Source: Actinernus sp. WN-2022
Lineage: Eukaryota > Cnidaria > Anthozoa > Actiniaria > Actinernidae
Assembly (NCBI GenBank): GCA_030867875.1
Contig: JAOWCC010000569.1
Location: 1,116,001 to 1,180,000 of the forward strand
DNA: 64,000 nt
Reading direction: 5' to 3'
Shown here: positions 18,441 through 64,000 of the stretch, piece after piece
Layout of the letters: every line of letters starts with the position of its first letter
How positions within the stretch are numbered: the stretch's first letter is position 1
Made by a program: the position numbers and the translations under genes
The notes under the pieces: model-generated
Told to the model about the DNA's origin: nothing
The model's input: the letters and a program-made list of their open reading frames with translations, nothing else
The model's database searches: none

Positions 18441-18446
18441 TCAACA

Positions 18447-19510: not shown

Positions 19511-19536
19511 CAGTCAAAACAGCAAAGGATAGAAGA

Positions 19537-20811: not shown

Positions 20812-20819
20812 TTAACGTT

Positions 20820-22348: not shown

Positions 22349-22368
22349 GCAAAACGTCAAAATCCGGC

Positions 22369-22938: not shown

Positions 22939-22950
22939 CAACTGCAGAAA

Positions 22951-24279
22951 TTACTGAAAGCCACACAACAAAATCATTATGCTGAAGAAATTAGACATAT
23001 CCAGAGCAAAACCAAAGCGAAAACTCCAGCACTGATACAACAATTTGGGCTCTACTTGGATGAAAACGGCCTTGTCCGCTGTTGTGGTAGACTGGAACAC
23101 TCAGACCTAGACAAAGACGCAAAGTTCCCCATTCTGCTACCGAAAGACGACTACCTTACTGTTCTTATGGTGCAAGCTATGCACAAAGCAGTCATGCATG
23201 GAGGTGTAGGAGAGACACTTACACAAGTTAGACAAACATACTGGATACCACAAGGAAGGCAACTCGTAAGAAAGATTATTACTAAGTGCGTCATATGCAA
23301 AAAGATTCAAGGACCTCCTTTTCGTTCCGTTACCAACCCACCCTTGCCTACATCGAGAGTCACGACATCACAAACATTCCAAACAACAGGAGTTGATTAC
23401 GCTGGACCACTATATGTGCGCACCACAAACGGTCAAACAAAGATGTACATATGTCAATTTACATGCGCAACTATTAGAGCAATAGACCTAGAATTAGTAG
23501 AAGATCAAACAGCGGAAGCCTTCATAAGAGCATTCAGACGATTCTCATCAAGAAGAGGAATACCCACGCACGTCATATCAGATAATGCCAAAAACTTTAC
23601 AGCGGGAACGAAAGAACTGCTAGAAATATTCAAGCATCCAACATGCCAGAACTTCCTATCTGAGAAAGGCATCATATGGGAATTCATAACAGAAAGAGCC
23701 CCATGGTGGGGAGGTTTCTACGAAAGACTCGTAGGCCTGGTAAAGAAATGTTTGAAGAAAGTACTTGGCAAAGCGTCACTGAACATGATAGAGTTGAATA
23801 CAATTCTGACTGAAGTAGAAGCGACATTAAACAGTTGACCACTGACATATCCTAATGTAGACATCAACGATATACCTCCACTCACACCATCGCATTTCCT
23901 TTGTGGCCAAGAAGAGGAAGATTCCGACTTCGATCCGACAAAAACTAACAGAAGTGATTTAACAAGAAGAGCAAAACATCATCACAAGCTAATGAAAAAC
24001 TTCTGGGAACGATGGAGAAATGAGTACCTTACAAATCTAAGGGAATACCATACAGTAAAAAGAGGAACCAACATAACGAAACACGTCAAAGTAGGAGATG
24101 TAGTGCTCATTCATAATGAAACACCACGCAACCAGTGGAGGTTAGGAGTAGTGACTAAACTTCAACAAGGAAGAGATGATTTGGTCAGAGCCGTTTCTCT
24201 GCGGCCCGGAAGAGTATTCGAGAATGTAATTAACTACGTCACAATCACTTTAATTAGGATTTCCCCAGTATCAGAATAA
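22951..24279 (+). pseudogene. BEL integrase with C-terminal DUF5641-like domain
   Basis: The zinc-binding domain at 23180-23310 shows MHKAVMHGGVGETL and CVICKKIQG (H-H-C-C). The catalytic core carries TGVDYAGPL, then HVISDNAKNF and APWWGGFYERLV with the expected D, D and E spacing. A TGA at 23836-23838 interrupts it; 23992-24279 continues with FWERWRNEYL and VKVGDVVLIHNE...WRLGVV, the C-terminal domain of BEL integrases. The coding end runs into the 3' LTR. It would join the cDNA to the target, giving the 5-bp duplication observed. Confidence 0.9.
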
Positions 24280-24664: not shown

Positions 24665-27007
24665 TTATAAGGGCATTGAGAACCTGGGAGGATACTCTAC
24701 AAATTCCCTGAGCTTTTTTATTGCCCCAATTCCCGATGAGACTTTCTTGGCTATGTCATCAATGTGTTTTTCCCATGTTAGAAATTCGTCTATGCGTACA
24801 CCGAGTATCTTGCAATCATTGACTCGTTTGACTGGGCCAACCCCAATTTTAGGTTCTGCGGTTAGTTTCTGCGGCAAGATTTTGTATTTTGGGTCTTGAT
24901 CCAATCAAGGTGTACTCTGTTTTGGCTATATTCAGGCTTAATTTGTTAGCTGATAGCCATTTTTTAACATTACTAAGGTCATGATTCAGGACCACTTCAG
25001 CTTCACTAACTGACTTGGCAACAGCCGTTAGGCTCGTGTCATATGCAAACAACCTAGGGGTAGTATGCTCGAGACAGTTTGACAAATCATTAATATATAG
25101 TATGAACAGAAGTGGACCGAGAATTGACCCATGAGGGATTATACAGGTTACTTTTCTATGACCAGAGAGCCTGCCGTTAACCTGGCAAGTTTGCTCTCTA
25201 TTGTTTAAGTAAGATTTCATAAGGCCTAAGGCATGTCCTTTGATACCGTAAGCCATGAGTTTATCCAAGAGGATCTCATGATTTACGGTATCAAACGCCT
25301 TTTTTAGATCAAGAAATATTACAAGGTTGTAAAGGCCTCGATCCATGTTGATATACCATTCATTAGTACAGTCCAGCAACGCAGACGCAGTAGAATGGAA
25401 CCGTCGGAATCCGTATTGATGTTCAGATAATAGATCCTGCGCAGTTATATATTCCATTAATTGCTCATATAAGATTTTTTCATATATTTTGCTTATTACT
25501 GGAAGTATTGAGATTGGCCTATAATTATCAAGCATATTTCGAGGACCTTTTTTGTGGAGTGGAATCACCCTAGCTAATTTCCATTCTGATGGAACAGTTT
25601 GTGATATAATGGATTTGTTGAAAATTTTCATGAGTGGTTGTGAAATTACTGGGGCTGCTAATCGGAGTACTTTACCCGAAATTGTATCCATTCCAGTGGC
25701 TTTGGATACAGATAGGGGATTAAGCAGCTTGAAAACTTTAGACGTACCAATGGCTCTAAAATAAAACTTGCTTTTAACTTCTTTAATGAAATATTTATGG
25801 TTAGAACCATTGGTGTCTATAGTTTCAGCAAGCTTTGGGCCTATATTCGTAAAATATTCATTAAAATGTTTAGCTATATCCTCTGACGATGTAACAGAAC
25901 AGTCTCCCAATTTAACCTCATTAATTTAACTCTCTTGCTGTTTTCGCCCAAGAATATCATTTATAGTTTTCCAGGCCCTTTTTGGATCATCCCTCTGTTT
26001 TTCTATTTGTGTAGCATAATATTCGACTTTGGCGTTACGTAGTGCAATGTTGACACTATTTCGGGAAGACTTATAAAGTGCCCAATCGCCTTCGTTGTTT
26101 CTTATAATTGCTATACGTTTTAGACGATCTCTTTCAAACATTTTTTCCTGATATCCTTTGTTATCCAGGGAAGATTCGATTGATTGCGTACTCTTTTTGA
26201 TTTGACTGGGGCGTGTCTGTCGAGCACTTCAAGAAACAATGCCTTCCATTGTGCCCACATTGCATCTACATTTTCTTCTCTATCAACTAGTTCCCAGGGT
26301 TTGCCATATAAGTCCGCCAGAAATCTTTCACTGTTAAAGCTTTTGAAATTACGGAATTCTATTTTCTTCATTGTATTAACTTTTGGGATGGAATTAATTT
26401 TGCGTATCGCATAAATTAAGCTATGATCGCTAAAACCAACACTGACAGCATCTGAGTGTATTATTTTTTCTGGCGAAGATGTATTTTCAGTTATTCTGGT
26501 TGGTTTAGCGATCAGCTGCGAAAGCTGGTATAACTCCATAATCGAGCAGAGTTTTTGGGCATATGGATTTGTCAAGTTGAGCAAGTTACAATTTAAATCG
26601 CCTAAAATGTAAATTTCCTTATCTTCATTGTCCACTAGCCCAATCAGCTGCTCAATGCTCAGGAACATTTCAACAGGTGCGCTAGGGGGTCTATAAATCG
26701 AAGATATAACGAACGGTCTACTCTTTGGTTTGTTTATTTCCAAGCATACTGCTTCAAGGTTTTCAGGCACTAAATCAGATCTTTCAGTAAACGTTATTGA
26801 TTTCCTTACTTAAATACAGACACCTCCGCCAGAGCGAGACCGATCGCAGCGGACAATGTCATACCCGTTCACACTGATCATTCCATCCGAGATAGTTTGA
26901 TCAAGCCGAGTTTCATTTAGTGCCAAAACATCAAACTCTCGATTTGTGAGTATGACATGAATTTCCTCTATGTGTTTCGTTAAACTAACTACATTCAGAC
27001 ATGCCAT
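24665..27007 (-). pseudogene. LINE ORF2 (endonuclease + RT), CR1-like
   Basis: On the minus strand ORF2 starts at ATG 27007 (ACLNVVSLTKHIEEI). The endonuclease continues with LALNETRLD, SGGGVCI, SSIYRPPS, YILGDLNCNLL, SDHSLIYAI across one frameshift near 26790. The linker holds WITKDIRKKCL. The RT frame 25910-24849 is long and clean: GMDTISGKVLRLAAP, WKLARVIPLHKKG, NYRPISILPVISKIYEKI, FLDLKKAFDTVNHEIL, GPLLFILYIND. The catalytic FADD reads FAYD, one Asp replaced by Tyr. The thumb is in another frame at 24904-24665 (LGVRIDEFLTWEKHI). It is an inactive but well preserved copy. Confidence 0.9.
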
Positions 27008-41289: not shown

Positions 41290-41475
41290 TATTAATCATT
41301 ATGGAGAGTGACCGTTCCAATTTGTTTTTTAAAAGAAACAAGATTCTCTGCCTGATGCAGTTTGGTAGGAAGCTTGTTCCATAATTTTGCCCCGTCATAG
41401 CCGAAGCTTTTTTCATGAATTCTGTTTTGGGGCGAGGGATATGTAATTTCGTGCTGGCTCCCAGGTGGAAATCTT
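41290..41475 (-). pseudogene. LINE C-terminal tail fragment
   Basis: In minus orientation the bases give RFPPGSQHEITYPSPQ, then NRIHEKSFGYDGAKLWNKLP and ENLVSFKKQIGTVTL, typical of the end of CR1/L2-type ORF2 (GAxLWNxLPxxL...SFKxxL). It is short (about 60 codons), 5'-truncated, and ends at the border with the AAGATCTT satellite. The match to the pattern is clear although no longer frame exists. Confidence 0.6.
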
Positions 41476-42075
41476 ATTAAGATCTTATAAGATCTTATAA
41501 GATCTTACAAGATCTTATAAGATTCTTATCAGATTCCCAATTAGACTAAGATCTTAATAAGATCTTATTAAGATTTCAGATCTTATTAAGATCTTATTAA
41601 GATTTCAGATCTTAATAAGATCTTAATATATTTTCTTACTTAAATCTTAATATTTGCTCATAAGGGTTATGTATTAAGATCTTATTAAGATCTTATAAGA
41701 TTTTATTAAGATCTTAATAAGATCATATAAGATTCTTATAAGAACATTAATAAGATTTTACTATAAATTATCAATAAGATCTTAATAGCATCTTGATATA
41801 TTTTCTTACTCAAATCTTAATAATTTTATTTGCTTATTAAAGCCGCTTATGTATTAAGATCTTATTAAGATCTTATTAAGATCTTATTAAGATCTTAATT
41901 ATTAAAGACCATATAAGATTCTTATAAGAACATTAATAAGATTTTACTATAAATCATCAATAAGATCTTAATAGCATATTGATAAGATCTTAATATGAAG
42001 TCTTACAAGATCTTTACATTTTGAAGTTCCTATTATTTGATCTTAAAACCTTTTCTTATGAGAATGTTAATAAGA
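41470..42075. repeat. Palindromic AAGATCTT satellite with higher-order duplication
   Basis: The stretch is made of overlapping palindromes TAAGATCTTA, ATAAGATCTTAT and variants, repeated dozens of times. A larger unit of about 185 bp (starting near TATATTTTCTTACT, including ATAAGATTCTTATAAGAACA) appears twice, at about 41625-41810 and 41805-41995. Palindromes at this density would form cruciforms. Confidence 0.9.
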
Positions 42076-44345: not shown

Positions 44346-44983
44346 ATTGGATCAGCAAAGACGCAACTCGAAGGGGTCTAGGTCAAAATAGTCCTTCCAA
44401 ACGAAGACTGGAAGAACTGCGTTCCGGACTGAGGGGGGAGTCTAGTGAGACAGTAAGTCGTAAGTTGGCTAGTTCTGATGAGTCGGAGCCAGAGGAGAAG
44501 CGGTCAAAGAAAAAGAGACAAAAATAGAAAAAGAAGAAAAAGAAGACCGTGCGTAAAGAACCGGCAAAAGAAACTACGACGATAGCAGAGAGCGTTGAAG
44601 AGGATAGTCTCGACTATAGCCAATACCTGCCTTGCTCGCAGAAACCAAAAAAGAAACCAGCTCCTAAGCCAAAGGAAAGTTCTAGTAGCTCTAGTTCAAG
44701 TTCTGGTTCTGGTTCTGAGTCCAGTTCGAGCAGCGAAGAGGAGACTCCTTCTGAGAAAGCGAAAACCATGAAACTCCTCGAAGTTATTGCAGCAGAGGCC
44801 AGCACTAGTGCGACTCCTATCGTCACCAAGAAAGCTGTGACGAAAAAAGCCAAACAACCGAAGCTCGTTCCAAAACCAACGGAACCTGTCGCTGAAGAGA
44901 AAGTAGTTGAACAGAATACCGTTGGCGAAAGGGTTGAAAGTAATCATAACGCAAAATCGGGACAAACCACGAGGCGTCGTTAA
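44346..44983 (+). pseudogene. C-terminal part of a lysine/serine-rich protein (virus-like)
   Basis: The frame (with one TAG at 44525-44527) begins with the 207-bp segment shared with 46007-46213 and goes on with a Lys/Pro-rich stretch, a poly-Ser run, an acidic run (SSSEEETPSEKAK) and a basic tail. This is probably the real C-terminus of the gene whose N-terminus is at 45413. Basic tails of this kind suit DNA condensation in a particle, but that is inference. The frame overlaps the helicase fragment from 44907, and a junction at about 44905-44915 probably makes the last 70 bases foreign. Confidence 0.55.
44351..44557 (+). repeat. 207-bp duplicated segment, copy 1
   Basis: It is identical to 46007-46213 except for about four substitutions. 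One of them (TCG to TAG at 44525) creates a stop in this copy. It encodes the Arg/Lys/Ser-rich segment of the protein at 45413-46258. Confidence 0.95.
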
Positions 44984-45304
44984 CGGACAAATAGCGCGAG
45001 TGCGCATGGTAGAAAACCAAACTGTGATCCTGGAATTACCTAACGAGAAGTTAGTGGGCGTTCACCTAGTAACGTGCCAAACGAACGACGGTGAGAAAAC
45101 CGTATTTCCCTTCACACCCTGCTATGCAGTGACGATTTGTAAAGCGCAAGGGCAGACTCTAACGAAATCGATACTATGGTTTGATATCGCAAATGTGCCT
45201 TGTGGAACGGCCTATGTGGGGCTTTCTCGAGTCAAGAAATTGACAGATTTGACACTGATGACGAGAATGAAAACGGAGCATTTCCAAATAGTCTATGCCG
45301 AGTG
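44907..45304 (+). pseudogene. Pif1-family helicase C-terminal domain
   Basis: From about 44910 (a stop TAG sits at 44904-44906 in this frame) the protein reads LAKGLKVIITQNRDKPRGVVNGQ, the OB-like region of Pif1 helicases, then CYAVTICKAQGQTL (motif V) and GTAYVGLSRVKKL (motif VI with the Arg finger). About 130 residues remain of a helicase of several hundred; motifs I-IV are missing. Pif1-like helicases occur in Helitrons and in several DNA virus groups. The composition and the downstream gene 109 bp away favour the virus. A clean stop at 45302-45304 shows the true C-terminus. Confidence 0.7.
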
Positions 45305-45412
45305 ATAGATATGACAAGCAATGAAGCCAACCCTGAATCAATACATGAATTTGCAGGTTATTAAACAATAACTGTTATGTTAACAGATCGTGATTGAGTA
45401 ACGTTTGAAAGA

Positions 45413-46258
45413 ATGGCTGGGAAGACATCCAAATATGTTCCTGCGAGTCCTAGCAAAGGAGTAAACTTCTTTTCCGTGTTTACTCGGAGTTTTATCAGGC
45501 CGTACGGCCGAGCCAGTCTATTACCTGATGATCAACAAATCTTTAATTGGATTAAACCATTTTCATGTGAATGGTTAAAGCGTCCGAACGTCGGCATGTC
45601 AGAGCTCGCCGAGACGATCAATGAAAACGCAGAACTTTTGACGAAGACAACGTCAAAGATCGTAGATAGCAAGAACATCGCTAAGACCTTGAAGGAACTT
45701 GACCCATTCATTAATGCATGTGAGAGGTTGAACTCAAAAACAAAAGAACCACCCACGGAAGACGACGTGATTACCTGCATGGAAGCTTTTCTGGCAGAGG
45801 AGGAAAAGGTGGACAGCTTTATTGAAGAAGCTTTCGAGGTAGGCTCAGCTTTGTTTTTGATAAGTTCCCACTTCGCGGTGGGAAGAGCTTTAATGCGTAA
45901 TCCCGATGTTTACGCGAAAATGTTGCAGGCGGATACAGCTGAAGCGAATCGTTTTATTCGCTCGAAATCGATGTTGAAATTAAAGGAGATGCTTGTTTCA
46001 TCGTGTATCAGCAAAGACGCAACTCGAAGGGGCCTAGGTCAAAATAGTCCTTCCAAACGAAGACTGGAAGAACTGCGTTCCGGACTGAGGGGGGAGTCTA
46101 GTGAGACAGTAAGTCGTAAGTTGGCTAGTTCTGATGAGTCGGAGCCAGAGGAGAAGCGGTCAAAGAAAAAGAGACGAAAATCGAAAAAGAAGAATAAGAA
46201 GACCGTGCGTAAAAATGCTTGGACTGCACAGGCATCTGGTGAAGCCTACACTTTATGA
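45413..46258 (+). CDS. Unknown helical protein with basic tail, probably viral
   Basis: ATG 45413 opens a 281-codon frame. Residues 1-200 are mostly helical with FFSVFTRSFIRPYGRASLLP near the start and FIEEAFEVGSALFLISSHFAVG later. Residues about 199-267 are the duplicated Arg/Ser/Lys-rich segment (RRGLGQNSPSKRRLEELR, SDESEPEEKRSKKKRR). The last dozen residues (NAWTAQASGEAYTL) follow the end of the duplication and are likely not native; the native tail is probably preserved in the upstream copy. I do not recognise the family. Upstream are GTTATGTTAACAG and a GTTTGAAA word close to the start. Codon and base use resemble 54.65-64 kb rather than the AT-rich surroundings. Confidence 0.6.
   Translation: MAGKTSKYVPASPSKGVNFFSVFTRSFIRPYGRASLLPDDQQIFNWIKPFSCEWLKRPNVGMSELAETINENAELLTKTTSKIVDSKNIAKTLKELDPFINACERLNSKTKEPPTEDDVITCMEAFLAEEEKVDSFIEEAFEVGSALFLISSHFAVGRALMRNPDVYAKMLQADTAEANRFIRSKSMLKLKEMLVSSCISKDATRRGLGQNSPSKRRLEELRSGLRGESSETVSRKLASSDESEPEEKRSKKKRRKSKKKNKKTVRKNAWTAQASGEAYTL
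46007..46213 (+). repeat. 207-bp duplicated segment, copy 2
   Basis: Direct copy of 44351-44557, about 1.66 kb away and in the same orientation, without the stop. Similarity ends abruptly at both borders. Confidence 0.95.
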
Positions 46259-53657: not shown

Positions 53658-54437
53658 TTGTTTTGTTATGGTTTAAAAATTGACGTAGTGTTTCAATATA
53701 AAATAACGTTATTTTATAGATTGAAAAAATATCGATTTTATGAGGACATAATGAATGTATATAAAGCGATATGTAACTGGCGAGGAAAACTTAAAAGATG
53801 GCATAAAGGAGGAAATTTGTTGAAAACAGAGTTAGGAGTTATTGACAAAATGATGCTGGACGTTAGTGATGTTACCGTGTCTCTCTATGAGTTACAGTTA
53901 GAAGAAAGCAATTCGTTTATATTCAATGAGGAGCACTCTTAACGAAACAAGGAGTTAAAAGAGCATTTACATGTAGAGGAGAGGTGTGACCAAGAAGTAG
54001 AAGTTGAATGGGAGCCCAAAGGTGGGGGTCAAAACTATAGAGATGATATGAAGAAGAACGATGAGATTGTAAATTTGGAGATGAAGAGAAAGCAATTGGA
54101 GGATTTAATATGTGAAATTATGAGAAGTCGCAACAATTATTTTGAAAGAGTATGTAAAGATGTTCAAAATAGAAGATGGAGAAAGATAGTAAGGGGAAGA
54201 CCAAGCATTGACCTATATGAGTTAAAGGACACAATAAGAGTCTACAGGGATTTATTACAAGAAAGAGAGCAGTTACGAACTAAATATTATTTTAATAGGA
54301 TTGGAGAGATAAGGAGGTGTCGATTACAGCAAGAGATTGACGATGAGAAGAAACCTAAGGAAGATTGTTTCCATAATTTTACTAATAAGGAGTTCTGTAA
54401 AAGTAGTATGAACAATGGGCGTTCTGGCCCACCTTGA
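53658..54437 (+). pseudogene. Charged coiled-coil ORF of unknown family
   Basis: One reading frame runs from about 53658 to 54437 with a single TAA at 53940-53942. An ATG in context is at 53751 (NVYKAICNWRGKLKRWHK). The first part ends LYELQLEESNSFIFNEEHS; the second (after 53943) is strongly helical and charged, for example EMKRKQLEDLICEIMRSRNN and YRDLLQEREQLRTKYYF. Codons are AT-rich like the surroundings and unlike the viral block. The reading ends inside a 141-bp hairpin. It may be a gag-like ORF of a retroelement or a host gene disrupted by the hairpin; I recognise no domain. Confidence 0.4.
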
Positions 54438-54541
54438 AAATGTTGTACAAGCAAGGCGGTTCGTTTCACTTCGTTTCGCTCACCCCCTTGCTTGCACAAC
54501 ATTTTCAAGTTTTTCCAGAACGCCCATTGTTCATACTACTT
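54401..54541. repeat. 141-bp hairpin: 59-bp arms, 23-bp loop
   Basis: Left arm 54401-54459 starts AAGTAGTATGAACAATGGGC, and its near-perfect reverse complement occupies 54483-54541, with roughly eight mismatches clustered in the middle. The loop (54460-54482) is TC-rich. It lies about 110 bp left of the first viral gene, so it may be a foldback element or relate to the viral end. Confidence 0.9.
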
Positions 54542-54649: not shown

Positions 54650-55438
54650 ATGGATAACATATCATGCCTCCCTCTAGAAATCTTGACTAAGATCGTAGAG
54701 TACGCAGGTCCTACGTCATTCGCGAGCGTCGCAAGGACGTCGAAACACCTAAGCGATGCCGCATCTCTCGCGCGCTACAAAAACGTAGACCAAGAGTTCC
54801 ATAAACGAGTTCTCACTTTTGGTTTGAGGTCTGCTTGCGACGATGACGAGCGAGACGAGTTGGCTGGGAAGTTCGCCGCCCTTGCAAACGACGAAGTCTA
54901 CGTTCTTGACGCACTATACGATGCCTGCAAAGACGGTCATCTCAACATCGCTAAATGGATAGCCAATCGCTTCCATCCCATCACAGATTTTGATGATTAC
55001 TCCATCGATGCTATGCTAGATGCCTGTAGGAATGATCGTTGTGATGTCGCTGAATGGATCGTTGAGTATTTTCAGCCCCCTATGGATGATGACTACGTTG
55101 TCGACGCTATGCTAGATGCCAGTAGGCATGGTCAGCTCGATGTCGTTAAATGGCTCATCGAGTACTTTCAGCCTATCATAAAGGATGAATGCATTGTTGA
55201 CGTTATATCAAGTGCCAGTAGACACGGCCATCTCGATGATGTTAAAGGGCTCTCTGAGTACTTTAAGCCCATCATAGAGCATGAAGACTTCGATCATATG
55301 ATGCTCACCGCCTACAAAAGCGGGTATTGCGATATCGCTAAGTGGCTCGCTGAGCACTTTCAGCCCGTCACAGGGTATAACTACTGCGATTGCGAAGCAT
55401 GTGAGACCTGCGTTCGTTGTCATCTTAGTACGCATTAA
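54650..55438 (+). CDS. F-box/ankyrin-repeat protein
   Basis: 262 codons from ATG 54650. Residues about 4-45 (LPLEILTKIVEYAGPTSFA, then RTSKHLSDAASLAR) are an F-box, which would dock to Skp1 of an SCF ubiquitin ligase. Residues about 85-245 are five degenerate ankyrin-type repeats, each with a version of MLDACR-x-x-x-CDVAEWIVEYFQP. The protein ends with a Cys-rich patch (CDCEACETCVRC). F-box-ankyrin combinations are typical of large DNA viruses that redirect host ubiquitination; this role is inferred. It is the first gene of the viral block, same strand as the next gene 47 bases downstream. No motif of the late-promoter type is seen upstream. Intact. Confidence 0.75.
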   Translation: MDNISCLPLEILTKIVEYAGPTSFASVARTSKHLSDAASLARYKNVDQEFHKRVLTFGLRSACDDDERDELAGKFAALANDEVYVLDALYDACKDGHLNIAKWIANRFHPITDFDDYSIDAMLDACRNDRCDVAEWIVEYFQPPMDDDYVVDAMLDASRHGQLDVVKWLIEYFQPIIKDECIVDVISSASRHGHLDDVKGLSEYFKPIIEHEDFDHMMLTAYKSGYCDIAKWLAEHFQPVTGYNYCDCEACETCVRCHLSTH

Positions 55439-55485
55439 TACCATACAGATCAAACGATCCGAAGAACCTAAACGTAGACGTCGCA

Positions 55486-56058
55486 ATGACTGAGATAGTA
55501 ACTTGTGATTGGTTGATGCGAGGAAAGGACATGAAATGCCCCAAGAAGATGTCTTCGACATCAAAGTACTGTGCCCAGCACAATTACCAAATCTCGAGAG
55601 GTTGCGCCCCATTCGTGCCGTGCTTGAAGTGCGGCAAAGGATGTCGCACGAGTTTCGAGCTTTGCTCAGTATGCGGAGCACCTCAACGTCGTCTCATCCT
55701 CAATAAGAAGAACCTCGACATAAAACGCGCTAAGGAGCAGGAGAAACTTGCAGGGCCGAACGTGGTGGAACCGGAGGAAGAGCCGAATGCGGCCGATATG
55801 AGACGCGCTAGGGAGTTCGACAAGATGCTAGAGGAAGACCTCAGGAACGAGTTGATTAGGACTGCCAACAAGCCGGGGCCCGTCTATGACTCGTATCCAA
55901 GAAAGGTGAAACCAGAGGAAGGTTTCGACGAGGCTCTTACGGTAGAATTGACCGCGGAACCAAGAGCGATGGAACCAGAGGAAGGTTTGGACGGGGCTCT
56001 CGGCCGTGCGTTCGACGAGGTGTTGACTGCCTTGAGGAGCCGCGAGAAGGAAGATTAG
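55486..56058 (+). CDS. Small Cys/His zinc-finger protein with acidic tail
   Basis: 190 codons from ATG 55486. The N-terminal 70 residues have paired metal ligands: CDWLMRGKDMKCPKK, KYCAQHNYQ, CLKCGKGCRTSFELCSVCG. Patterns like C-x(n)-C...YC-x-x-H are common in DNA-virus proteins and may bind nucleic acid or protein. The rest is charged, with a repeated phrase (KPEEGFDEAL, EPEEGLDGAL) near the end. Function unknown. It lies between the F-box and TFIIB-like genes, all on the plus strand, which suggests a group of non-structural genes. Intact. Confidence 0.6.
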   Translation: MTEIVTCDWLMRGKDMKCPKKMSSTSKYCAQHNYQISRGCAPFVPCLKCGKGCRTSFELCSVCGAPQRRLILNKKNLDIKRAKEQEKLAGPNVVEPEEEPNAADMRRAREFDKMLEEDLRNELIRTANKPGPVYDSYPRKVKPEEGFDEALTVELTAEPRAMEPEEGLDGALGRAFDEVLTALRSREKED

Positions 56059-56120
56059 GAACCGCCACGTAAGAAAAAAAGAAGGATGGAGGGAGGTCGT
56101 TGCGTGACCCCTCTTCATTC

Positions 56121-56138
56121 TTTTTTTTTTTTTTTTTT
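56121..56138. repeat. T18 run upstream of the TFIIB-like gene
   Basis: Eighteen T follow GACCCCTCTTCATTC and precede the TFIIB-like ATG by about 30 bases. It might be a transcription-termination signal of the preceding gene, as T-runs are in poxvirus-like early genes, or a chance homopolymer. Confidence 0.5.
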
Positions 56139-56169
56139 CCTATTAGACGGATGGCATCTATAGCGTATC

Positions 56170-57108
56170 ATGGCCGAGCTCATCAGATTGTTTGGTCCTG
56201 GAATTTGTAGAAGCTTGTATATTGAACCACGATTGCAAATCAACACCAGTGAAACATGTTCCGATTGTCTCTGCCCCTTGGAAATACAAGGAACGGAATT
56301 CGTGTGTCCCACATGCGGTCTCGTTTCCGAGACCGAACCCTGTGAAGAAACGAAGGTCGACGTTGATACTACTCGACTGTGTATTGTAGGTCCGGATAGA
56401 TTTCAGTATCAAAATGATCTAGACCGCGCAAAACCAAAGCAAAGCGATAACACATACCTGCAACGACGAACGATCCTACGAGAACTACAAGCGTACAACG
56501 CTATTTATAAACAAAGTTATGGCCTATCGTTCCCTACGAACACGTTAGGAATCGTAGCCGACGCCTTTATCCAAGTAAGGAAAGTCTGTCTCAAGCGTAG
56601 TCGCGCTAAGAGAAGCATTTTAGCTGCTCTACTCTACCAGGCATGCGTGCAATGCGGGTTTGTGCGATCTAGAGGCGAGGTTGCTCGCTTCGTGCAACTA
56701 AACGACAAAGGCAGCTGTAGCGGAGAGGTCTTTATACGTTCTCTGTATGACGACGATAAGATCGATATGGACTTGAATGCCGAGCGCATAGTTCCCCACA
56801 TTGCAACGACTTTCCTTAAACTCGATCCTCAAGGAGTACCTACGGACGTTCAATGAATAGTCCACGAGGTCGTTACTACGGCAATAGAAAGCAACATAGG
56901 CACCAAGTCGGTACTTAAGACGAAAGTCGTTGGAGCAAGTTACGAGGTGCTACGTCGTTTAGGATCGTCTATGCCTCTTAACGAGGTCGTCAGACGATGT
57001 GACATATTCGTAAATTCAGTCAAGCGTTTTGTCAATGAGTTGCTTTCTTACCATTCCCACTTCGAACCAATTTACACTAAGCATGGGCTAACTAGCGATA
57101 GGACTTAG
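56170..57108 (+). pseudogene. TFIIB-like transcription factor with one in-frame TGA
   Basis: A single frame of 313 codons, ended prematurely by TGA at 56854-56856 but open again to TAG 57106-57108. Residues 30-49 form the TFIIB zinc ribbon (CSDC...CPTC, Cys 30, 33, 46, 49). Residues about 105-215 resemble the first cyclin fold (SILAALLYQACVQCG). The part after the stop has a second one (VVGASYEVLRRLGSSMPLNE). Total length equals that of cellular TFIIB. Viral TFIIB copies are known from nucleocytoplasmic large DNA viruses and would direct viral promoter recognition. The lesion is one codon, so inactivation is recent or the base is wrong. It is convergent with the gene at 57160-57771. Confidence 0.8.
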
Positions 57109-57159
57109 CGAAGTGAAAGTGGGAGCCATGTTCGTTTCTTTCGTAGGAAATATCGATTC

Positions 57160-57771
57160 TTACCCCACTAAGCTGCCAAGCTTTTCTCGCATTTCCTTTT
57201 GCACTTCTTGCTTGAGTTCGGCTCGAACCCGATCCGGACTTTTTTCACCTTCGCGACGAATTTCAGACCTCATAATCTCATACTTATTTGCTTCGTCCAG
57301 GATGAGACCGTATTCAGAGTCGGATATGTTTTCGTCGCGTAGGGCCTTCGATACTAGATCGCGAATCGTATTGATTTTCGCCTTTGCCAACGTGGTCGTC
57401 CTTTCATGTTTAGAAACCTTCATTCCTAACTTCTTGGCTCCGATGGTAGTAGATGCTGAAATCAATCCACATAGTCCACCAACAACTCCAAGTGGTAGAC
57501 CAATCACTATTCCAACCCCAGTCAACGCTACGCCCAATCCAGATCCAGACAAGATCACAGATAGACCTCCCGTTGCCACTGCGATACCATGAACTATTCC
57601 TTGAGAACGTGCATATTTCTTGCGCACACCTTCGTAGTGTCTTTCTTGAACTTCGATGTCCGAAAGCGTGTCTCGGATCGTTTGCAGTCTAAAGTTCTTT
57701 CCAGTGTCACTAGCAATCGGTGGATAGATATTTGGTGCTGAGGGAAACGGTTGAATAGAATCGCCGTCCAT
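57160..57771 (-). CDS. Glycine-zipper membrane protein
   Basis: The frame opens at 57786, but the Met at 57771 (MDGDSIQPF) is preferred, because the upstream Met lies inside the TTATATGTATAAC promoter word. This gives 203 residues. The N-terminal part is helical (TLSDIEVQERHYEGVRKKYA), the middle is a Gly/Ala-rich hydrophobic hairpin (GIAVATGGLSVILSG, GVALTGVGIVIGLPLGVVGG), and the C-terminal half is a charged helix pair (KVSKHERTTTLAKAKINTI). Such a glycine-zipper hairpin could span or perforate a membrane, perhaps for entry or an inner virion membrane. I believe similar proteins occur in cnidarian virus-like elements. It follows 57792-58451 on the same strand. Intact. Confidence 0.65.
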   Translation of the reverse strand: MDGDSIQPFPSAPNIYPPIASDTGKNFRLQTIRDTLSDIEVQERHYEGVRKKYARSQGIVHGIAVATGGLSVILSGSGLGVALTGVGIVIGLPLGVVGGLCGLISASTTIGAKKLGMKVSKHERTTTLAKAKINTIRDLVSKALRDENISDSEYGLILDEANKYEIMRSEIRREGEKSPDRVRAELKQEVQKEMREKLGSLVG

Positions 57772-57806
57772 TGTAACGTTATACATATAACTTACTCAAG
57801 CTTCAA
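57772..57806 (-). promoter_or_regulatory. Late-type promoter of the glycine-zipper gene
   Basis: In minus orientation the order is GTTGAAG (57800-57806), then TTATATGTATAACG and the ATG at 57771. The same GTTGAA word followed by an AT core and a (G)TTAT/TATAAC word precedes the genes at 58451, 58495, 61334 and 61369. It overlaps the 3' end of the upstream gene, so the motif is conserved despite lying in coding DNA. Confidence 0.5.
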
Positions 57807-58451
57807 CACGTACAGTATGGGTCGACCCTGGAAGTCTATCGTATTACCTTTCTCATCACGAATTGTCAGACGAAGACTGCTTCGTATCGTACCTAGAGCT
57901 TTGACAGCTAGAGGTTGTAGTGAGGCATACGTCGTTTTCAAAAATCTATCGCCTCGGATATGTATTCTACTTAGGACTTTAGATTGTTTTCCCTCTTGAA
58001 TCGAGAATCTGGAATCCACCACGTCGCAGCAGATATACGCTATGTGGATTTCATCTTGGATGGACACTTCGTGCATACCTACTTTTAGTCGCGTGCCGGT
58101 CCCATCTTCATTAATACCCATCAGTTTGCAGAGATTTCCACTAAGTAGAATCGATTGCTTGACTTCTAGGTTCCAAGCCCTCCTATGGTGGGGCTTCTCG
58201 ATTTTTATGATGTCAGCACTAACTGCAGGCGCAAGGAATTGTCGAAGGCTCGCCATAGTGTGGTTTCCCTTAGGAACGTCGTACGGTAACCCCACACCTT
58301 CGGTAGACCACCAGAAGGTAGCATTCTCTGCTAGGTTCCACCAACTATTCTCGATAGTGACCTCGACTAGTGAAATGTTCTGTATGAGAATAGGGTTGTC
58401 GAAGTAGACAGTATGGTCGGCCAATGTTGTGGTGATATATAAGAGAACCAT
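57792..58451 (-). CDS. Candidate small capsid (penton-type) protein
   Basis: 219 residues from Met 58451 (VLLYITTTLADHTVYF); an upstream extension to 58583 is ignored because it crosses the divergent promoter and neighbour. The sequence alternates short beta-strands (NPILIQNISLVEVTIENSWW; RLKVGMHEVSIQDEIHIAYI) and ends with LRLTIRDEKGNTIDFQGRPI and a final strand LYVLKLE. Size, beta content and location beside other structural genes fit the single-jelly-roll minor capsid/penton proteins of Polinton-like and adintovirus-like viruses, but I see no decisive motif. It is divergent from the 583-aa gene, with which it shares the promoter at 58452-58494. Intact. Confidence 0.45.
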   Translation of the reverse strand: MVLLYITTTLADHTVYFDNPILIQNISLVEVTIENSWWNLAENATFWWSTEGVGLPYDVPKGNHTMASLRQFLAPAVSADIIKIEKPHHRRAWNLEVKQSILLSGNLCKLMGINEDGTGTRLKVGMHEVSIQDEIHIAYICCDVVDSRFSIQEGKQSKVLSRIHIRGDRFLKTTYASLQPLAVKALGTIRSSLRLTIRDEKGNTIDFQGRPILYVLKLE

Positions 58452-58494
58452 CTTATATGTTGAAGGTATAACTATATATACGTATAGCTTCAAC
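58452..58494. promoter_or_regulatory. Bidirectional viral promoter with GTTGAAG/CTTCAAC arms
   Basis: The 43-bp gap between divergent ATGs holds GTTGAAG (58459-58465) and its exact reverse complement CTTCAAC (58488-58494, touching the plus-strand ATG), enclosing a 22-bp AT core (GTATAACTATATATACGTAT...). The near-symmetry lets it serve both genes. Confidence 0.65.
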
Positions 58495-60246
58495 ATGGCA
58501 GATGCATGGCAACAGTTCAAGTATCTATTTCCTAATGCCGTACTTAGTTGGTTCGAATCTACTTCCGATAATGTTAATTTCATCGATCGGGGAATGTCTC
58601 ATCGCGTGTTCACGAAGGAAGGTCCTCCTACTAAGACGGGAGGTGGTAAATTGATGGGGTGGCTCGGTCGCACTGGTAAGGCTCTCGATATAGCACTTGG
58701 TGGTAAGTCAGTTTACGAGAGCGTACTATTCACGCGGGAACACGAAGGTCTTTCCAAACGCGTTTGGATAGAAGAAAACGATAAGATCGCAACATTGAAT
58801 GCAGATCTATTAGCGAAGTTCGAGAAACGATACCCACATGCAGATCTTCACAAGTTCTATGCCTCTACGGAAGTGAACGGTCCAGACAAATATTCGACGA
58901 GTATTTGGTTTCGAGATGGAGATTCTAGCTATGTCGTTTACGGCGATGATGTCTCAAAGTTACCTGCAGTCACTCAAAAACGCATCGATGACGCATTGCA
59001 GGGAATGGTTGATGGTTTCCCATCTACATTGACACTAGATAAGAGTGCGAAATATCCTATTCGAGCAGTTCCTTTTACCGAACCGGCACAAGACATAGAT
59101 CTCACCAAGTTATGGATATACGTCACACCTACGAAGAAGTTCGAAGCAGGCGTTCCAAATATATTCAAGGAGATCGTTGTAAAGCATACGACAGCGAATG
59201 AGTCTCGTAGATGGTTATCAGGTCCGGATTTCAAATACTGGCCTCAACAACTTAATTTTGCAACGTGGTGTGTAACTTCTGGATGCGGAGTGTCGTTGTT
59301 TGACCCCACTTTCAAAACATATCCACCAGTTGTCCAAGGGTTCCTACGATTCCACGTATATTTCACGATACGAAGAATTCTACACGAACTTGGAGCTCCT
59401 CTACCTGGTAACCGTGCTTTCAAGCAACTCAACAATCTCTATAGCAAATCAGTCCTTGAGAAATTGTGCATCGAATTCGGTATATCTCGAACGCCAGACT
59501 TTCGGTTGGATGGCTTAGGAGACGTCTACGTAAACTCTCATGGAAGAATGTTGAACTATACAGAGAAGTACGCACATAATACTTCGTACTCTGCGAAGTG
59601 GCCTGGTGGTGACTTCAAGTTTCCTGAGGAGAGTCGTACGGACTATCAGTTTCCTTTATCGTACATTAGCAATAACAACGGTAAACAATACAATTGGTTT
59701 ACGCCACCAAGCGGTAGAGGTTTGACGAATGCTGGGTTAGGTAGATTGAATCGATCTGTTGAGGCTTTTGGATACTGTATTCTAGGCGCTCAAAACGATC
59801 TTAACGAATCCATCGTAGATAGCTTCAACGTCAAAGAAAAGTTCAAGAGCTTAGTCGAAGGCGCTATTCTCGAAAACGATTTAGTGGTGAGCTACAAAAA
59901 CTATCTTACTGCTATAATGACAACGCATAAGAGGCTCGATCTAGCGATAGCTATAGGCGTGCGATTATTGCCAAGCAATCTAGTGTACTATCTTGGTAAG
60001 AAAGATGGCTATAGAAATCCAACCCCGAAAGCCACGAAAGATATGACGCTAGGTACTAACGACATCAATGCAGAAGTCAAAGGACGTCCGCCTCCCATGG
60101 AAGGACCCCCAGATAAGAAATTAATACCACCTCATGAGACGCACAAGAACCGAGTTCCTGTACCAAAGTCTATCCCACAACATGAGATTAATCTCGCAGT
60201 GACATCTATTGCCGCAGCTGGAATCGCATGGACGTTGTTTCGTTAG
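58495..60246 (+). CDS. 583-aa unknown, probable structural protein
   Basis: The ATG at 58495 (ADAWQQFKYLFPNAV) follows the CTTCAAC arm directly, so it is chosen over an extension to 58429. N-terminal residues 1-110 include GGGKLMGWLGRTGKALDIALGG. The middle has NFATWCVTSGCGVSLFD and VQGFLRFHVYFTIRRILHEL, later FGISRTPDFRLDGLGDVYV and a Gly/Asn/Tyr-rich segment (NNGKQYNWFTPPSG), then IEAF-type helix (SVEAFGYCILGAQNDLNES). The last residues IAAAGIAWTLF look like a hydrophobic tail anchor. I associate the family with cnidarian virus-like elements but have no function for it. Fully open for 1.75 kb, the largest intact gene in the block. Confidence 0.65.
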   Translation: MADAWQQFKYLFPNAVLSWFESTSDNVNFIDRGMSHRVFTKEGPPTKTGGGKLMGWLGRTGKALDIALGGKSVYESVLFTREHEGLSKRVWIEENDKIATLNADLLAKFEKRYPHADLHKFYASTEVNGPDKYSTSIWFRDGDSSYVVYGDDVSKLPAVTQKRIDDALQGMVDGFPSTLTLDKSAKYPIRAVPFTEPAQDIDLTKLWIYVTPTKKFEAGVPNIFKEIVVKHTTANESRRWLSGPDFKYWPQQLNFATWCVTSGCGVSLFDPTFKTYPPVVQGFLRFHVYFTIRRILHELGAPLPGNRAFKQLNNLYSKSVLEKLCIEFGISRTPDFRLDGLGDVYVNSHGRMLNYTEKYAHNTSYSAKWPGGDFKFPEESRTDYQFPLSYISNNNGKQYNWFTPPSGRGLTNAGLGRLNRSVEAFGYCILGAQNDLNESIVDSFNVKEKFKSLVEGAILENDLVVSYKNYLTAIMTTHKRLDLAIAIGVRLLPSNLVYYLGKKDGYRNPTPKATKDMTLGTNDINAEVKGRPPPMEGPPDKKLIPPHETHKNRVPVPKSIPQHEINLAVTSIAAAGIAWTLFR

Positions 60247-61334
60247 CGTCGTTTGTATTGCTCCACTACGAAGACCACTGCTGCTACGATTAACAACCAA
60301 ACGTTGTTTGCTAAGACTCCAACAACGTCGGCAGCCATACTGAATACGAAACTCGCAATTGGCCCAATCATCTTAGGTAGAATCTCCTCTAACTTCTTAC
60401 CCATTGCTTTTAAGGCTTTGGCAGTTGTTTTAGCGACTGCTTTGGCAGCATCTCCAACTCCCGATACTATCTCGGGAACTGCCTTTGTCAGATTGGAAAC
60501 TATCACGCCGATCACCGTACTTACCGCAGCTACCACGCTAATTATACTGACTCCATACTTCTTGAAGATGATTCTTATACGATCCCTAAGTGGCATACGT
60601 TCTGCCAGGGCTTCTTCTATTTGTTCTAGGACTGCTTGTTCCTCCTGATCGGTTCTTATTTCATTAGTAGCGTTTTCTTTCTGAGTTTCGGTAGACGTAG
60701 GGTCTTTGAGTATTTCTTCATTTCGTTGGATCCTCTCACGCAATTGGTCTTCGGCCTCTATGACTTCTTCTACCATTTCTTCCCTCGAAGGTCCTAGGAC
60801 TACTTTGAGACCTTTTCCCATCTTCTTATATAACCCACCCTTCGTGGTGGTCATAGGAATCGCTTTTTCTTTACTTCCATACTCGTGGATAGCGACTCTA
60901 CCATCAGACATGGTTGCCATCTCGAGAACACCTCGAATTCCCACATCTGGATATCGTTCCCAGACGGTCTCGAACATGTCCTGTTTTGCATTTTCCGATA
61001 AGCCCTGCTTGAAGATCACATCTCTAGCGCCGAATTTAGGAGGTTTCTCATCTTCCAGATTTTCCAGGACCTTTTCGCGTCTAGAAACTTTCGAGTCTTC
61101 CGGGCCGGTGAGTTCGTCGATGTAATCATCATCGTCTACAGAAAACGAGGTTTCCTGATTCTTTGACCTAGCGCCTTCCTTGGCGTAGTCGCGTCTGGTT
61201 TTCATCGGGAACATTTCTCCCGACTCTTCTGGAAACGCCACTTTCCACTTCTCCATATCGACAGCATCCTCATCGTCGTAGTCTTCGCCTCCCGTGGCTT
61301 CACCAGGTCTTTCCTCTGCAGCATCGCCTTCCAT
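60243..61334 (-). CDS. 363-aa acidic protein with C-terminal hydrophobic domain
   Basis: Start at Met 61334 (EGDAAEERPGEATGGEDYDD), just inside the promoter, rather than the longer frame to 61424. Residues 1-110 are acidic and disordered; 110-180 contain GARDVIFKQGLSENAKQDM and VWERYPDVGIRGVLEM; then a coiled coil (EEVIEAEDQLRERIQRNEEIL). Residues about 265-363 are a membrane-active-looking tail: KKYGVSIISVVAAVSTVIGV, LTKAVPEIVSGVGDAAKAVA, KKLEEILPKMIGPIASFVFS, VWLLIVAAVVFVVE and a final basic YKRR. This combination recalls adenovirus pX/pVI-like core or lytic proteins, by architecture only. It ends convergently with the 583-aa gene (4-base overlap). Intact. Confidence 0.6.
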   Translation of the reverse strand: MEGDAAEERPGEATGGEDYDDEDAVDMEKWKVAFPEESGEMFPMKTRRDYAKEGARSKNQETSFSVDDDDYIDELTGPEDSKVSRREKVLENLEDEKPPKFGARDVIFKQGLSENAKQDMFETVWERYPDVGIRGVLEMATMSDGRVAIHEYGSKEKAIPMTTTKGGLYKKMGKGLKVVLGPSREEMVEEVIEAEDQLRERIQRNEEILKDPTSTETQKENATNEIRTDQEEQAVLEQIEEALAERMPLRDRIRIIFKKYGVSIISVVAAVSTVIGVIVSNLTKAVPEIVSGVGDAAKAVAKTTAKALKAMGKKLEEILPKMIGPIASFVFSMAADVVGVLANNVWLLIVAAVVFVVEQYKRR

Positions 61335-61368
61335 GTTAAACATAACCGTATATTTATGTATGTTCAAC
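61335..61368. promoter_or_regulatory. Bidirectional viral promoter, GTTAAAC/GTTCAAC arms
   Basis: The 34 bp between divergent ATGs (61334 minus, 61369 plus) begin GTTAAAC and end GTTCAAC, imperfectly inverted, with an AT core ATAACCGTATATTTATGTAT. Same plan as 58452-58494, including the arm abutting the plus-strand ATG. Confidence 0.65.
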
Positions 61369-62603
61369 ATGATATCGTCAAAGTTGATTCCTACGAAGGC
61401 GCAGAGAGAGCCTCTTGCACTCAAAGCTCAACGAACCTTGTATAGGAAAACTTTCACTCCATCATCTGCCAATCCAGGTGAGACTCTATACGTAGAAGTT
61501 CCAACGCTAGGTGAAGGCATAGTACTAGTACCTGGTAGCTTAGCGCTATTGGGCGACATCGTATTATCTGGTGGACATGCGAATAACAGAGTCGTTTCGA
61601 ACGTTGGACGATGCTTGGTTATACATAGAATCTGTAAGATGGGGGCTGAAATGGTAGAAGACCTTGCCAGGTCGGATCTCCTACAAACGTATTCCGACGT
61701 ATATCTATCCACGCAAGAGAGAGAATCGAGAATACAACAAGGCATCCAATCAGAGAACGTAAACAAGCTACGATCTAAGGCTGGCGATAAGAGTACTTCG
61801 GTTGCTGCAGATAACGCGCTCCTAGCTGCACACGGTTCCAAATATAGAATTCCATTAGACGTCGACATTCTGACACAACATGGAGTTCTATATCCACAAA
61901 CCTAGAAGATACTATTTCATTCGAGTTGACTCTAGCGCATGCCATCGATGTCGTAGTTGGATCGGATACGACAAAGATAGGTACGTACCAACTTACCAAC
62001 ATCCAACTAGAATACGAAGCAATCAAGGATGAAACTCTGGCTAGTAGTGCGCTTCACAAGTACGAAACAGGTACCGCATTCCTATACGACCACGCCGTTC
62101 ACTTCAAGACGGTACCTATCGCTAAAGCATCCGATGCTTTGATATCTCAAAACGTCAACGTTCCACGACGATCCTTTGCTGGACTACTTCTACTATTCGT
62201 AGATCCACACACTGCTGGTACGCGAGATAGCGAAGCATTCTCGAATCCTGATATTTTGAAGATAGAAGTAGATGTCAACGGGATTCCCAACAGATTCTTT
62301 CCAAGCGGTATGCTTCCCCCAGATTTCTGGGAGGCTGCGAAAGGATGGTTTGCTACGTCCAATACTTCCATGACTCCAACGAAGTTTTACAACAATAGGT
62401 TCGCCATCCTAGTCGATTGTCGCACGGCAAAGGATTCCACAGTTCATGGTGATGGATTGGCACAAACGGGCGGTGGAAAAGATATCGACATTCGCATACA
62501 TAGAACTGCGAAGGGAAGTGGAAATGTGAACATGCACATCTATGTCCTTGCGGATGCTCAGCTCACGATATTGAACAGATCTTTACGTAGTATAACATAC
62601 TGA
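61369..62603 (+). pseudogene. Candidate major capsid protein, one frameshift
   Basis: Starts at ATG 61369 (ISSKLIPTKAQREPLAL) and reads to TAG 61903-61905; homologous-looking coding continues in the next frame from about 61895 to TGA 62601-62603. One single-base indel near 61895-61902 explains this. Together about 410 codons. The first part is helical/beta (GETLYVEVPTLGEGIVLVPG); the second is beta-rich with QLTNIQLEYEAIKDETLA, RRSFAGLLLLFVDPHTAG, DILKIEVDVNGIPNRFFPSG, RFAILVDCRTAKDS, and ends with ADAQLTILNRSLRSITY. Length, beta content and position before the packaging ATPase suit a double-jelly-roll major capsid protein; no structure was computed. No obvious slippery heptamer is present at the break. 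Confidence 0.55.
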
Positions 62604-63229
62604 TGGATTCTCTCGTAGAGCACGTGCCGTTCAACGCACTCATAGTCGGTCCAACGAATTGTGGGAAGACTGCGTTTCTCATAGAACAACTTCGTGGATA
62701 ATTTCGTGGCAAGTTCGATTACATAGTACTGATTTGTCCTACATATGCCCACAATAAAACCTATCGCGGATTCGCAAATCGAGATCCTCGTTTCTTCGAC
62801 ATATCACCACAGCAGGATGCCATCGACGCTACGTTAAGTATTTGCGCGACCTTTTGGTCAGGTACCAGTACTCTATTGATTCTCGATGATTGCGCCGCAT
62901 CGAAGGACGTCAAGAAACGAACTGACAAGCTAGTAGACTTAGCATTTTCTGCACGACATATAGGGATTTCTATTTGGGTGCTGTCCCAACAATTGACGAG
63001 CATATGTAAACCCTTCCGCGAGAACGTAGCTATCGTAGTAGCATTCCATACAGCATCGGCCGTAGATGGCAAAAGGATATTTGAGGATTATGGAGGCTCG
63101 CAAGAATGCAAAGAGTTACGAACGATACTTGGATCCCATAAGTTCGCTCGCATGTGCTTCTGTCTACGCCATCCTTTCGAGGTAGTGTTAGAGCTCCCAG
63201 CACCTACAACATATTATCATGGACGATAA
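62603..63229 (+). pseudogene. DNA packaging ATPase (A32/FtsK-HerA type), one in-frame TAA
   Basis: The ATG overlaps the previous stop by one base (TGATG). Residues 16-23 are Walker A, GPTNCGKT; residues 91-97 Walker B, LLILDDC; then ARHIGIS (114-123 region) and WVLSQQL (125-131), the sensor strand of A32-type packaging ATPases. TAA at 62699-62701 (codon 33, just after Walker A) interrupts an otherwise open 208-codon frame. The size is the minimal form known from adintovirus/Polinton and poxvirus A32 relatives. It would pump the genome into capsids. The 3' end overlaps the next gene by 11 bases. Confidence 0.85.
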
Positions 63230-63776
63230 AGAAACACTCGAGTTACTTGGTGAGGATGTAACAGGCCCACCACCACCACCAAAAATAGAGAATGCGCATT
63301 CCTCTGTAACGGAAGATCGGGAAGCTCTCTCGATTCTAGCCGTAACTGGTACGACGAAGGAATACCTAGGGAAGAATCTCTCTCTAGGGGACATTTCTAA
63401 ACTGTCAGACAAAGACGTAGAACGCTTACATACTAGATACCAGTCCGGCTTAGCAAAACAAATAACAGGGTGTTTAGTAAATAGAGCACTTAGCCTAGTA
63501 GTTCGCGTAATCGCATACGTGCTACCTATAGATTCTCACCAAGAACTATTGAAGGATCTACAAGAAGACCAATTAATCCGAAATGAGATATCTGCCATGG
63601 CTGGGTCGTTGTCTTACAGAGCAGGCCCACTCGTAGCGACAACTAGCGCTATGTATCACATCCTTGCACACTATACGCCAGGGAAAGAGGAGGATGACGA
63701 AGTCGACGAATATGAAGTGGATACCCCAGAAAGAACCGTAGTACTTGAGGCATATTCATCATTAAAGAATCTTTAG
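63219..63776 (+). CDS. 185-aa unknown protein, late-gene cluster
   Basis: ATG 63219 lies inside the end of the ATPase gene. The first 40 residues are acidic with a Pro run (GPPPPPKIE). The core is helical: LSLGDISKLSDKDVERLHTR, ALSLVVRVIAYVLPI, DSHQELLKDLQEDQLIRNEI, then a small-residue helix RAGPLVATTSAMYHIL and an acidic tail (EEDDEVDEYEVD). I recall related short proteins in cnidarian virus-like elements but no function. Tight overlap with the ATPase suggests co-transcription. Intact. Confidence 0.6.
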   Translation: MDDKETLELLGEDVTGPPPPPKIENAHSSVTEDREALSILAVTGTTKEYLGKNLSLGDISKLSDKDVERLHTRYQSGLAKQITGCLVNRALSLVVRVIAYVLPIDSHQELLKDLQEDQLIRNEISAMAGSLSYRAGPLVATTSAMYHILAHYTPGKEEDDEVDEYEVDTPERTVVLEAYSSLKNL

Positions 63777-63825
63777 TGTCACACACCTATTGAACCTTCA
63801 CATATATCTTCTATATCGAATCAAG
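63777..63825 (+). promoter_or_regulatory. Possible promoter of the last gene
   Basis: TTGAACCTTCACATATATCT followed by TCTATATCGAATCAAG precedes ATG 63826. It has the TTGAA word and TATA-rich core of the other late-type promoters but no clear second arm. Confidence 0.3.
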
Positions 63826-64000
63826 ATGGAAGGACAGACGGATCAGATAACTGCGAGTCCACCGACGACTGTACCAACTAAGAAAGGAAAACATCCAAAG
63901 CGCGTTGCAGCAGGAAAATTAGCTTGGGAGAAGGTCACTGCCCGTGCAAAAGAAGCTCAAAGGATGGAGATAGAACGTGAAAATGAACCGTCCAAAGAAA
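63826..64000 (+). CDS. Lysine-rich protein, N-terminal part (cut by window end)
   Basis: ATG 63826 opens a frame still open at 64000 (58 codons). It begins EGQTDQITASPPTTVP, then KKGKHPKRVAAGKLAWEKV and a charged helix (RAKEAQRMEIERE). The KxPKRVAAGK stretch looks like a DNA-binding or packaging motif and I have seen similar starts in cnidarian virus-like proteins. Nothing can be said about the rest. Confidence 0.55.
   Translation, partial: MEGQTDQITASPPTTVPTKKGKHPKRVAAGKLAWEKVTARAKEAQRMEIERENEPSKE

Follow-up and report, generated by a model that had tools for sequence, protein, structure and literature searches.

Gene content and boundaries of the element

We investigated a stretch of 64,000 nucleotides from Actinernus sp. 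WN-2022 (Cnidaria, Actiniaria), here called the window, which covers positions 1116001-1180000 of contig C1304 in a genome of 1.39 Gb and 1772 contigs, together with the adjoining 10 kb to its right (L009, of which 5749-5887 equals coordinate 69749-69887) and further flanking pieces (L010-L012). The right-hand part of the window contains a gene block that an earlier note, made from the sequence alone, had taken for an endogenous DNA virus, and that very probably belongs to a degraded copy of an integrated virus of the Polinton/Maverick type (a polintovirus), 15,486 bp in length and one of many in this genome. Genes for DNA polymerase B, an RVE integrase, an A32 ATPase and capsid proteins are present, with inverted terminal repeats and a target duplication, and near-identical copies were identified on other chromosomes. 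The features of the element are as follows (lengths in amino acids, aa).

54397-54401: target site duplication GTAAA, left copy (right copy L009:5888-5892)
54402-54540, + strand: left terminal palindrome (hairpin) AGTAGTAT...ATACTACT, the outer part of a ~240-bp inverted terminal repeat
54650-55438, + strand: F-box and ankyrin-repeat protein, 262 aa (Pfam Ank_4 9.8e-11, F-box 0.00041)
55486-56058, + strand: Cys/His-rich protein, 190 aa, zinc-finger-like by eye, without a Pfam match
56170-56856, + strand: putative TFIIB-like factor, 228 aa, C-terminally truncated, with weak Pfam and PDB matches
57160-57786, - strand: 208-aa protein with a hydrophobic glycine-rich stretch
57792-58451, - strand: penton (minor capsid) candidate, 219 aa, proposed from size, place and motifs only
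58495-60246, + strand: 583-aa protein with a C-terminal membrane-helix-like tail, of a large unnamed family
60243-61334, - strand: 363-aa acidic protein with a hydrophobic C-terminal part
61369-62603, + strand: predicted major capsid protein gene, broken (61369-61905 and 61848-62603 in different frames)
62609-63229, + strand: predicted A32-type packaging ATPase gene, broken (in-frame stop at 62699-62701)
63219-63776, + strand: 185-aa protein without a match
63820-64000, + strand: short frame leaving the window into L009
L009:219-428 and 581-853: short frames
L009:~1016-2194, + strand: RVE integrase (PF00665)
L009:2172-2630, - strand: further frame beside the polymerase
L009:~2500-5664, - strand: DNA polymerase B (PF03175)
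L009:5749-5887 (69749-69887), inverted: right counterpart of the left terminal palindrome

Three short frames separate the 185-aa gene from the RVE integrase, and polymerase B comes last. This copy is damaged in that the capsid gene is split between two frames, the ATPase gene has an internal stop and the TFIIB-like frame is truncated; the C-terminal part of the polymerase is presumably in another frame, judging by resemblance.

The hairpin of the left boundary in guanine-cytosine (GC) content recurs, inverted, in L009, and the element therefore spans window position 54402 to coordinate 69887, its right end lying 5,887 bases past the window. GTAAA is directly repeated on both sides. GC content rises from ~0.37 to 0.455 at 54 kb and falls again past L009:6000, with ~0.44-0.51 inside the element versus 0.30-0.40 in the adjoining DNA of L009 and L010. 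An open frame of the flank (54048-54437), for which a Pfam scan gave no match, crosses the left boundary and was thus interrupted by the insertion. An Rfam scan of the window returned nothing, and ARAGORN identified no tRNA in it. The terminal inverted repeats end in (AGT)2//(ACT)2, which is shared with Polintons/Mavericks; passages of PMC8097293 give (AGT)2//(ACT)2 or (AG)3//(CT)3 as the end motif of vertebrate Mavericks.

The frames of the earlier note were all recovered at its positions, with database and genomic matches beyond those due to chance, and the block does continue past the window, as it had supposed, although the true start lies at 54402, to the left of the 54650 that it had given. 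Its capsid and ATPase frames are likewise genuine genes, but neither is intact. Extension to the right, which it had proposed, yielded the polymerase, the integrase and the terminal inverted repeats, and its view that the gene mix does not match a textbook Polinton is not supported, given the PF03175 polymerase, the PF00665 integrase and the Maverick end motif found there.

An array of 11-nt tandem repeats (L009:~860-1017) lies directly 5' of the integrase frame.

Replication, integration and virion proteins

The polymerase matches PF03175 (E 1.8e-17) and contains a YTDTDS motif, and is assigned from these to the protein-primed-type class of DNA polymerase B. It additionally contains a weak match to Endonuclease VII (0.0011, below cut-off); its N-terminal half is present and unmatched, with no OTU family in Pfam at E <= 0.1. 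The integrase matches PF00665 (E 2.1e-10), the integrase core of human immunodeficiency virus (HIV; 3.9e-4) and the IS481 transposase model NF033577 (6.9e-15, below the cut-off of that model). Pfam detected only rve in it, and no chromodomain.

For the ATPase piece, 1383 of 1401 scored database candidates match, and PF04665 is carried by 116 of the 120 relatives among the matches listed, in agreement with the A32-type ATPase of the earlier note. The piece itself reaches E 9e-5 and 22.5 bits against a cut-off of 22.8, so that we class the protein as A32-like by sequence. The predicted major capsid protein is encoded by a single gene across two reading frames, with the frame change near 61.9 kb, and its piece matches 18 of 512 scored database candidates. 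The modelled fold of a homologue (P0241) matches double-jelly-roll proteins, including several proteins of Nucleocytoviricota (NCLDV) among the best matches (PBCV-1, ASFV p72) and a protein of Adintovirus sp. at rank 7. The capsid protein is accordingly modelled as a double jelly-roll, as expected of the earlier note's capsid candidate. A PDB sequence search with the capsid alignment gave no match, and profile scans of viral contigs with the capsid piece or the ATPase piece gave no relative.

The F-box/ankyrin protein of the earlier note is upheld by the Pfam matches listed above, and its TFIIB-like factor by weaker ones. The protein in the window matches Pfam TFIIB at 0.014 and human TFIIB in PDB at 0.021, and the three other copies tested contain a TFIIB zinc ribbon and a cyclin repeat in the correct order (PDB TFIIB 0.044). 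These weak, correctly ordered matches suggest a TFIIB-like factor, whose frame is ~80-105 aa longer than here in 6/6 other non-allelic copies. Terms for TFIIB and polinton occur together in PMC12638062, PMC12085832, PMC6563490 and PMC6401483.

For the 583-aa protein, 1442 of 7989 scored database candidates match at E <= 0.001, and none of the 120 listed among these 1442 relatives has a Pfam domain or a name. The longest contig is 13.0-17.6 kb, the size of the present element, for 19 of these 120; such contigs could be free genomes, or merely collapsed repeats. Listed relatives of the 583-aa protein and of the ATPase fall on contigs of equal size in two cases (P0004/P0131 and P0032/P0130), which is consistent with linkage of the two genes. 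Scans of viral contigs and of genome contigs with the 583-aa alignment gave no relative. Its C-terminus resembles a membrane anchor, both in a model helix and in sequence, the structure model as a whole being poor (predicted local distance difference test, pLDDT, 42.2), and its N-terminal part varies among copies. We infer a membrane-anchored, host-facing or virion protein.

Copies in the genome and selection on their genes

All 40 scored genomic places match the whole 660 bases of the penton candidate gene at 96-100%, and since these 40 were scored out of 2870 first-look candidates, the copy number is at least 40. The nearest copy, on contig C635 (L013, L014), has the same flanks and is an allelic insertion, which is therefore either common to two haplotypes or was assembled twice. 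Eight neighbourhoods of 3.66 kb are largely collinear, at about 86-98%, except where the 583-aa gene varies in its 5' part.

We compared 21 copies (20 fetched and the present one), selected by penton similarity, which favours the penton gene, and counted a frame as open if it was so over at least 93% of its length. Open frames were identified for the capsid gene in 12 copies, the ATPase in 15, the penton candidate in 20, the 363-aa protein in 16 and the 583-aa protein in 8. Since other copies carry the genes as single open frames, the spliced host genes that the earlier note had named as a possible refutation are rejected. Ratios of nonsynonymous to synonymous divergence (dN/dS; pairwise, ratio of means, by a counting method, using long open frames only) were 0.119 for the ATPase (15 copies), 0.307 for the capsid (12), 0.342 for the penton candidate (20), 0.392 for the 363-aa protein (16), 0.417 for TFIIB (7) and 0.153 for the 208-aa protein (6). 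Values well below 1 in virion genes indicate that a large share of the divergence dates from replicating lineages in which capsids were needed.

Contig C1304 resembles an alternative haplotype of the C635 terminus.

Terminal palindromes and target duplications

The ends of 31 loci were covered by 62 pieces, of which 37 contain a palindrome bounded by AGTAGTAT and ATACTACT. At least one terminal palindrome is present in 24 of 30 distinct insertions, with lengths of 83-329 bp. By a separate criterion (palindrome >=80), 38/62 end pieces were positive and 0/80 coding pieces, while controls gave 2/36 pieces of window 1-54000 and 2/18 pieces of L010-L012. The 10 two-ended insertions listed carry the same hairpin at both ends (93-100% alike), and the 35 hairpins fall into 12 single-linkage families at 85%.

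The hairpins differ in sequence and keep their pairing. In an alignment of 12 of the 35 (one per insertion, 134-172 bases; longer, shorter and later ones excluded), two-sided changes were identified at 23 of 39 pairs and 98.3% of cells pair, with G-T counted as a pair although it is a mismatch in DNA; at one pair it is the type seen most often. There are 97 two-sided and 6 one-sided cells. Covariation scores 0.594, compared with 0.184 for shuffles and no more than 0.189 after sliding. The direct orientation fits better in 65/65 alike hairpin pairs (10 within an insertion, 55 between), these pairs not being independent and the orientations being hard to distinguish in nearly perfect palindromes. 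Taken together, the covariation and the direct orientation indicate that pairing is kept while the sequence turns over, with no sign of inversion. Such a pattern would follow from selection for the paired form, or from the copying of one arm from the other, and would not follow from a flipping rolling hairpin.

Among 11 distinct insertions with both ends available, 10 have an exact 5-bp duplication and one (copy 13) lacks any. A 6-bp length also suits 7 of these 10 if the final T of the right end is taken as part of the target. We prefer a length of 5 bp because the three misfits to 6 bp all fall on that one base; a mixed or a 6-bp reading is the alternative. The target duplication of Polintons is 6 bp in passages of PMC10045372 and PMC8097293. 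We found no description of hairpin or palindromic Polinton ends in the literature searched, including passages of PMC8097293, PMC10045372 and PMC6431247, the founding Polinton/Maverick papers being outside its scope.

One insertion (copies 22L/22R; L073, L074) has a hairpin of 83 bp at one end and 328 bp at the other, as if the middle of the palindrome had been lost. A near-perfect palindrome at L010:2471-2665, with 90-nt arms (99%) and without AGTAGTAT ends, is perhaps a foldback element.

Proposed mechanism and alternative explanations

In the life cycle that we propose, the polymerase would copy a linear genome from its ends, primed by protein, the ATPase would pack it into a double-jelly-roll capsid, and the integrase would join the AGTAGTAT ends to staggered cuts, producing the 5-bp duplications. 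The TFIIB-like factor may direct viral transcription, and the F-box/ankyrin protein may recruit a host ubiquitin ligase. New copies would have reached the germ line mainly via particles, because purifying selection acts on the capsid and ATPase genes between copies. The terminal palindrome may be kept either by recognition of its paired form in end replication or integration, or by re-copying of one arm from the other. We tentatively suggest, as a possibility that falls short of the probable, a Polinton lineage with structurally conserved and sequence-variable end hairpins that act in end replication or integration (a paired origin or telomere of a protein-primed-type genome), with a 5-bp-stagger integrase and its own TFIIB-like factor, still selected for particles and present in very many copies.

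Several observations weigh against these proposals. The TFIIB domain matches are all below the Pfam cut-offs, the capsid model is of modest confidence (pLDDT 60.5, whole-chain TM score about 0.2-0.36), and the candidate for the single-jelly-roll penton protein of Polintons has no Pfam match and no PDB sequence match. No adenovirus-type cysteine protease was matched among the frames scanned; a protease is present in 74% of Polintons in passages of PMC4028283. The duplications are of 5 bp and not the published 6 bp, and copy 13 has none. The dN/dS values are limited to frames that pass the 93% length filter in penton-similar copies, and lie far above those of cyprinid Mavericks, of the order of 0.001 in passages of PMC8097293. 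Three further points are adverse or neutral: the 6/30 insertions without a palindrome, whose ends may have been lost or may fall beyond the piece fetched; the measure of further pair types, which was reached by 147 of 500 shuffles and so is not above them; and the counting of G-T as a pair.

The strongest of the alternatives concerns the ends alone, and we regard it as unlikely, if less so than the others: the palindromes might be foldback transposon-like units that were moved solo by the integrase, became attached to the virus ends and have no function in the virus. It would account for the integrase end motif AGTAGTAT/ATACTACT on both sides of each hairpin, but the hairpins sit exactly at the ends, both ends of an insertion share the same one, and no solo hairpin was found in the window, L009-L012 or 20 coding pieces. 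A purely vertical transposon without virions, whose copies diverge by neutral decay after insertion, is improbable; at least three genes are broken in the present copy and the insertion is also on the allelic contig, as it would predict, yet dN/dS of 0.12-0.42 and capsid frames open in 12/21 copies speak for the particle-borne spread proposed above.

Replication of the hairpins by a rolling-hairpin mechanism, as in parvoviruses, is less credible again. The long, near-perfect terminal palindromes suit it, as does the excess of two-sided over one-sided changes, which is expected if arm templates arm; however, both orientations would be expected among alike pairs, and the polymerase is apparently of the protein-primed type. 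A flipping rolling hairpin is rejected as the principal explanation on the 65/65 direct pairs. Least probable of all, and hardly to be entertained, is a distinct NCLDV-like virus or a mosaic of NCLDV and Polinton. The TFIIB-like, F-box/ankyrin and Cys/His proteins and the NCLDV proteins among the best capsid fold matches point in that direction, but the element has only 15.5 kb, enclosed by its own inverted repeats and a target duplication, it carries a PF03175 polymerase and an RVE integrase, and the frames scanned gave no match to an NCLDV primase, an RNA polymerase subunit or a late transcription factor. An NCLDV-like virus is rejected on size, ends, polymerase and integrase.

Comparison with known elements and viruses

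Polintons are regarded as central to how eukaryotic DNA viruses evolved; the workings of their ends are, to our knowledge, little known. The element resembles the Polintons/Mavericks described in passages of PMC8097293 and PMC4028283 in its 15-20 kb class, polymerase B, RVE integrase, packaging ATPase, double-jelly-roll capsid, inverted terminal repeats and purifying selection on core genes. It differs from them in the 5-bp duplications in 10/11 insertions, the long terminal palindromes, the TFIIB-like, F-box/ankyrin and 583-aa genes and the lack of a protease in the frames scanned. Its novelty relative to known Polintons lies in the cargo genes and most of all in the terminal hairpins with their covariation.

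Adintoviruses likewise combine polymerase B, an integrase, a jelly-roll capsid and an ATPase, and those associated with Drosophila are 13.3-14.6 kb long (passages of PMC11071296 and PMC8363768); in contrast to them, neither an integrase chromodomain nor a polymerase OTU domain was detected here by Pfam. In adintoviruses the chromodomain is C-terminal in the integrase and the OTU-like domain N-terminal in the polymerase, and BLASTP against reference adintoviruses recognises the hexon. With Nucleocytoviricota, the element shares the A32-type ATPase family and the jelly-roll capsid fold, and differs in size, ends, polymerase class and integrase. A TFIIB-like factor also occurs in NCLDV. The termini of parvoviruses are hairpins, terminal palindromes able to self-fold, and those of the present element are self-foldable also; unlike a parvovirus rolling hairpin, which would invert, they show no flip/flop in 65 alike pairs, and the polymerase is another one. 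Maverick copies are described in zoantharians (PMC10586311), and the foldback of PMC8504770 does not concern Mavericks.

Across many insertions in one genome, the end hairpin has changed in sequence while keeping its pairing and orientation, and the duplications locate the ends with single-base precision. This opens to direct test both what the termini do and whether spread is by particles in an animal-like host. With a TFIIB-like gene under purifying selection, a small virus would have a start factor of its own for transcription.

Other features of the window

We additionally identified other features to the left of the element, mobile-element sequence among them. Several more reverse transcriptase-like frames were seen by eye within 8-39 kb.

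18423-24279: retroelement with an integrase zinc-binding domain and an rve core, presumably BEL/Pao-like by its domain order
24849-25925: reverse transcriptase of an element resembling long interspersed nuclear elements (LINE-like; RVT_1 4.9e-32)
44907-46258: possible remnant of another mobile element or virus, 1.4 kb in an island of GC 0.44 that holds a frame resembling a helicase C-terminus (Herpes_Helicase 0.0037, below cut-off) and a 286-aa frame without a match
41471-41995: AT-rich array whose units are short palindromes around ATCTTAATAAG

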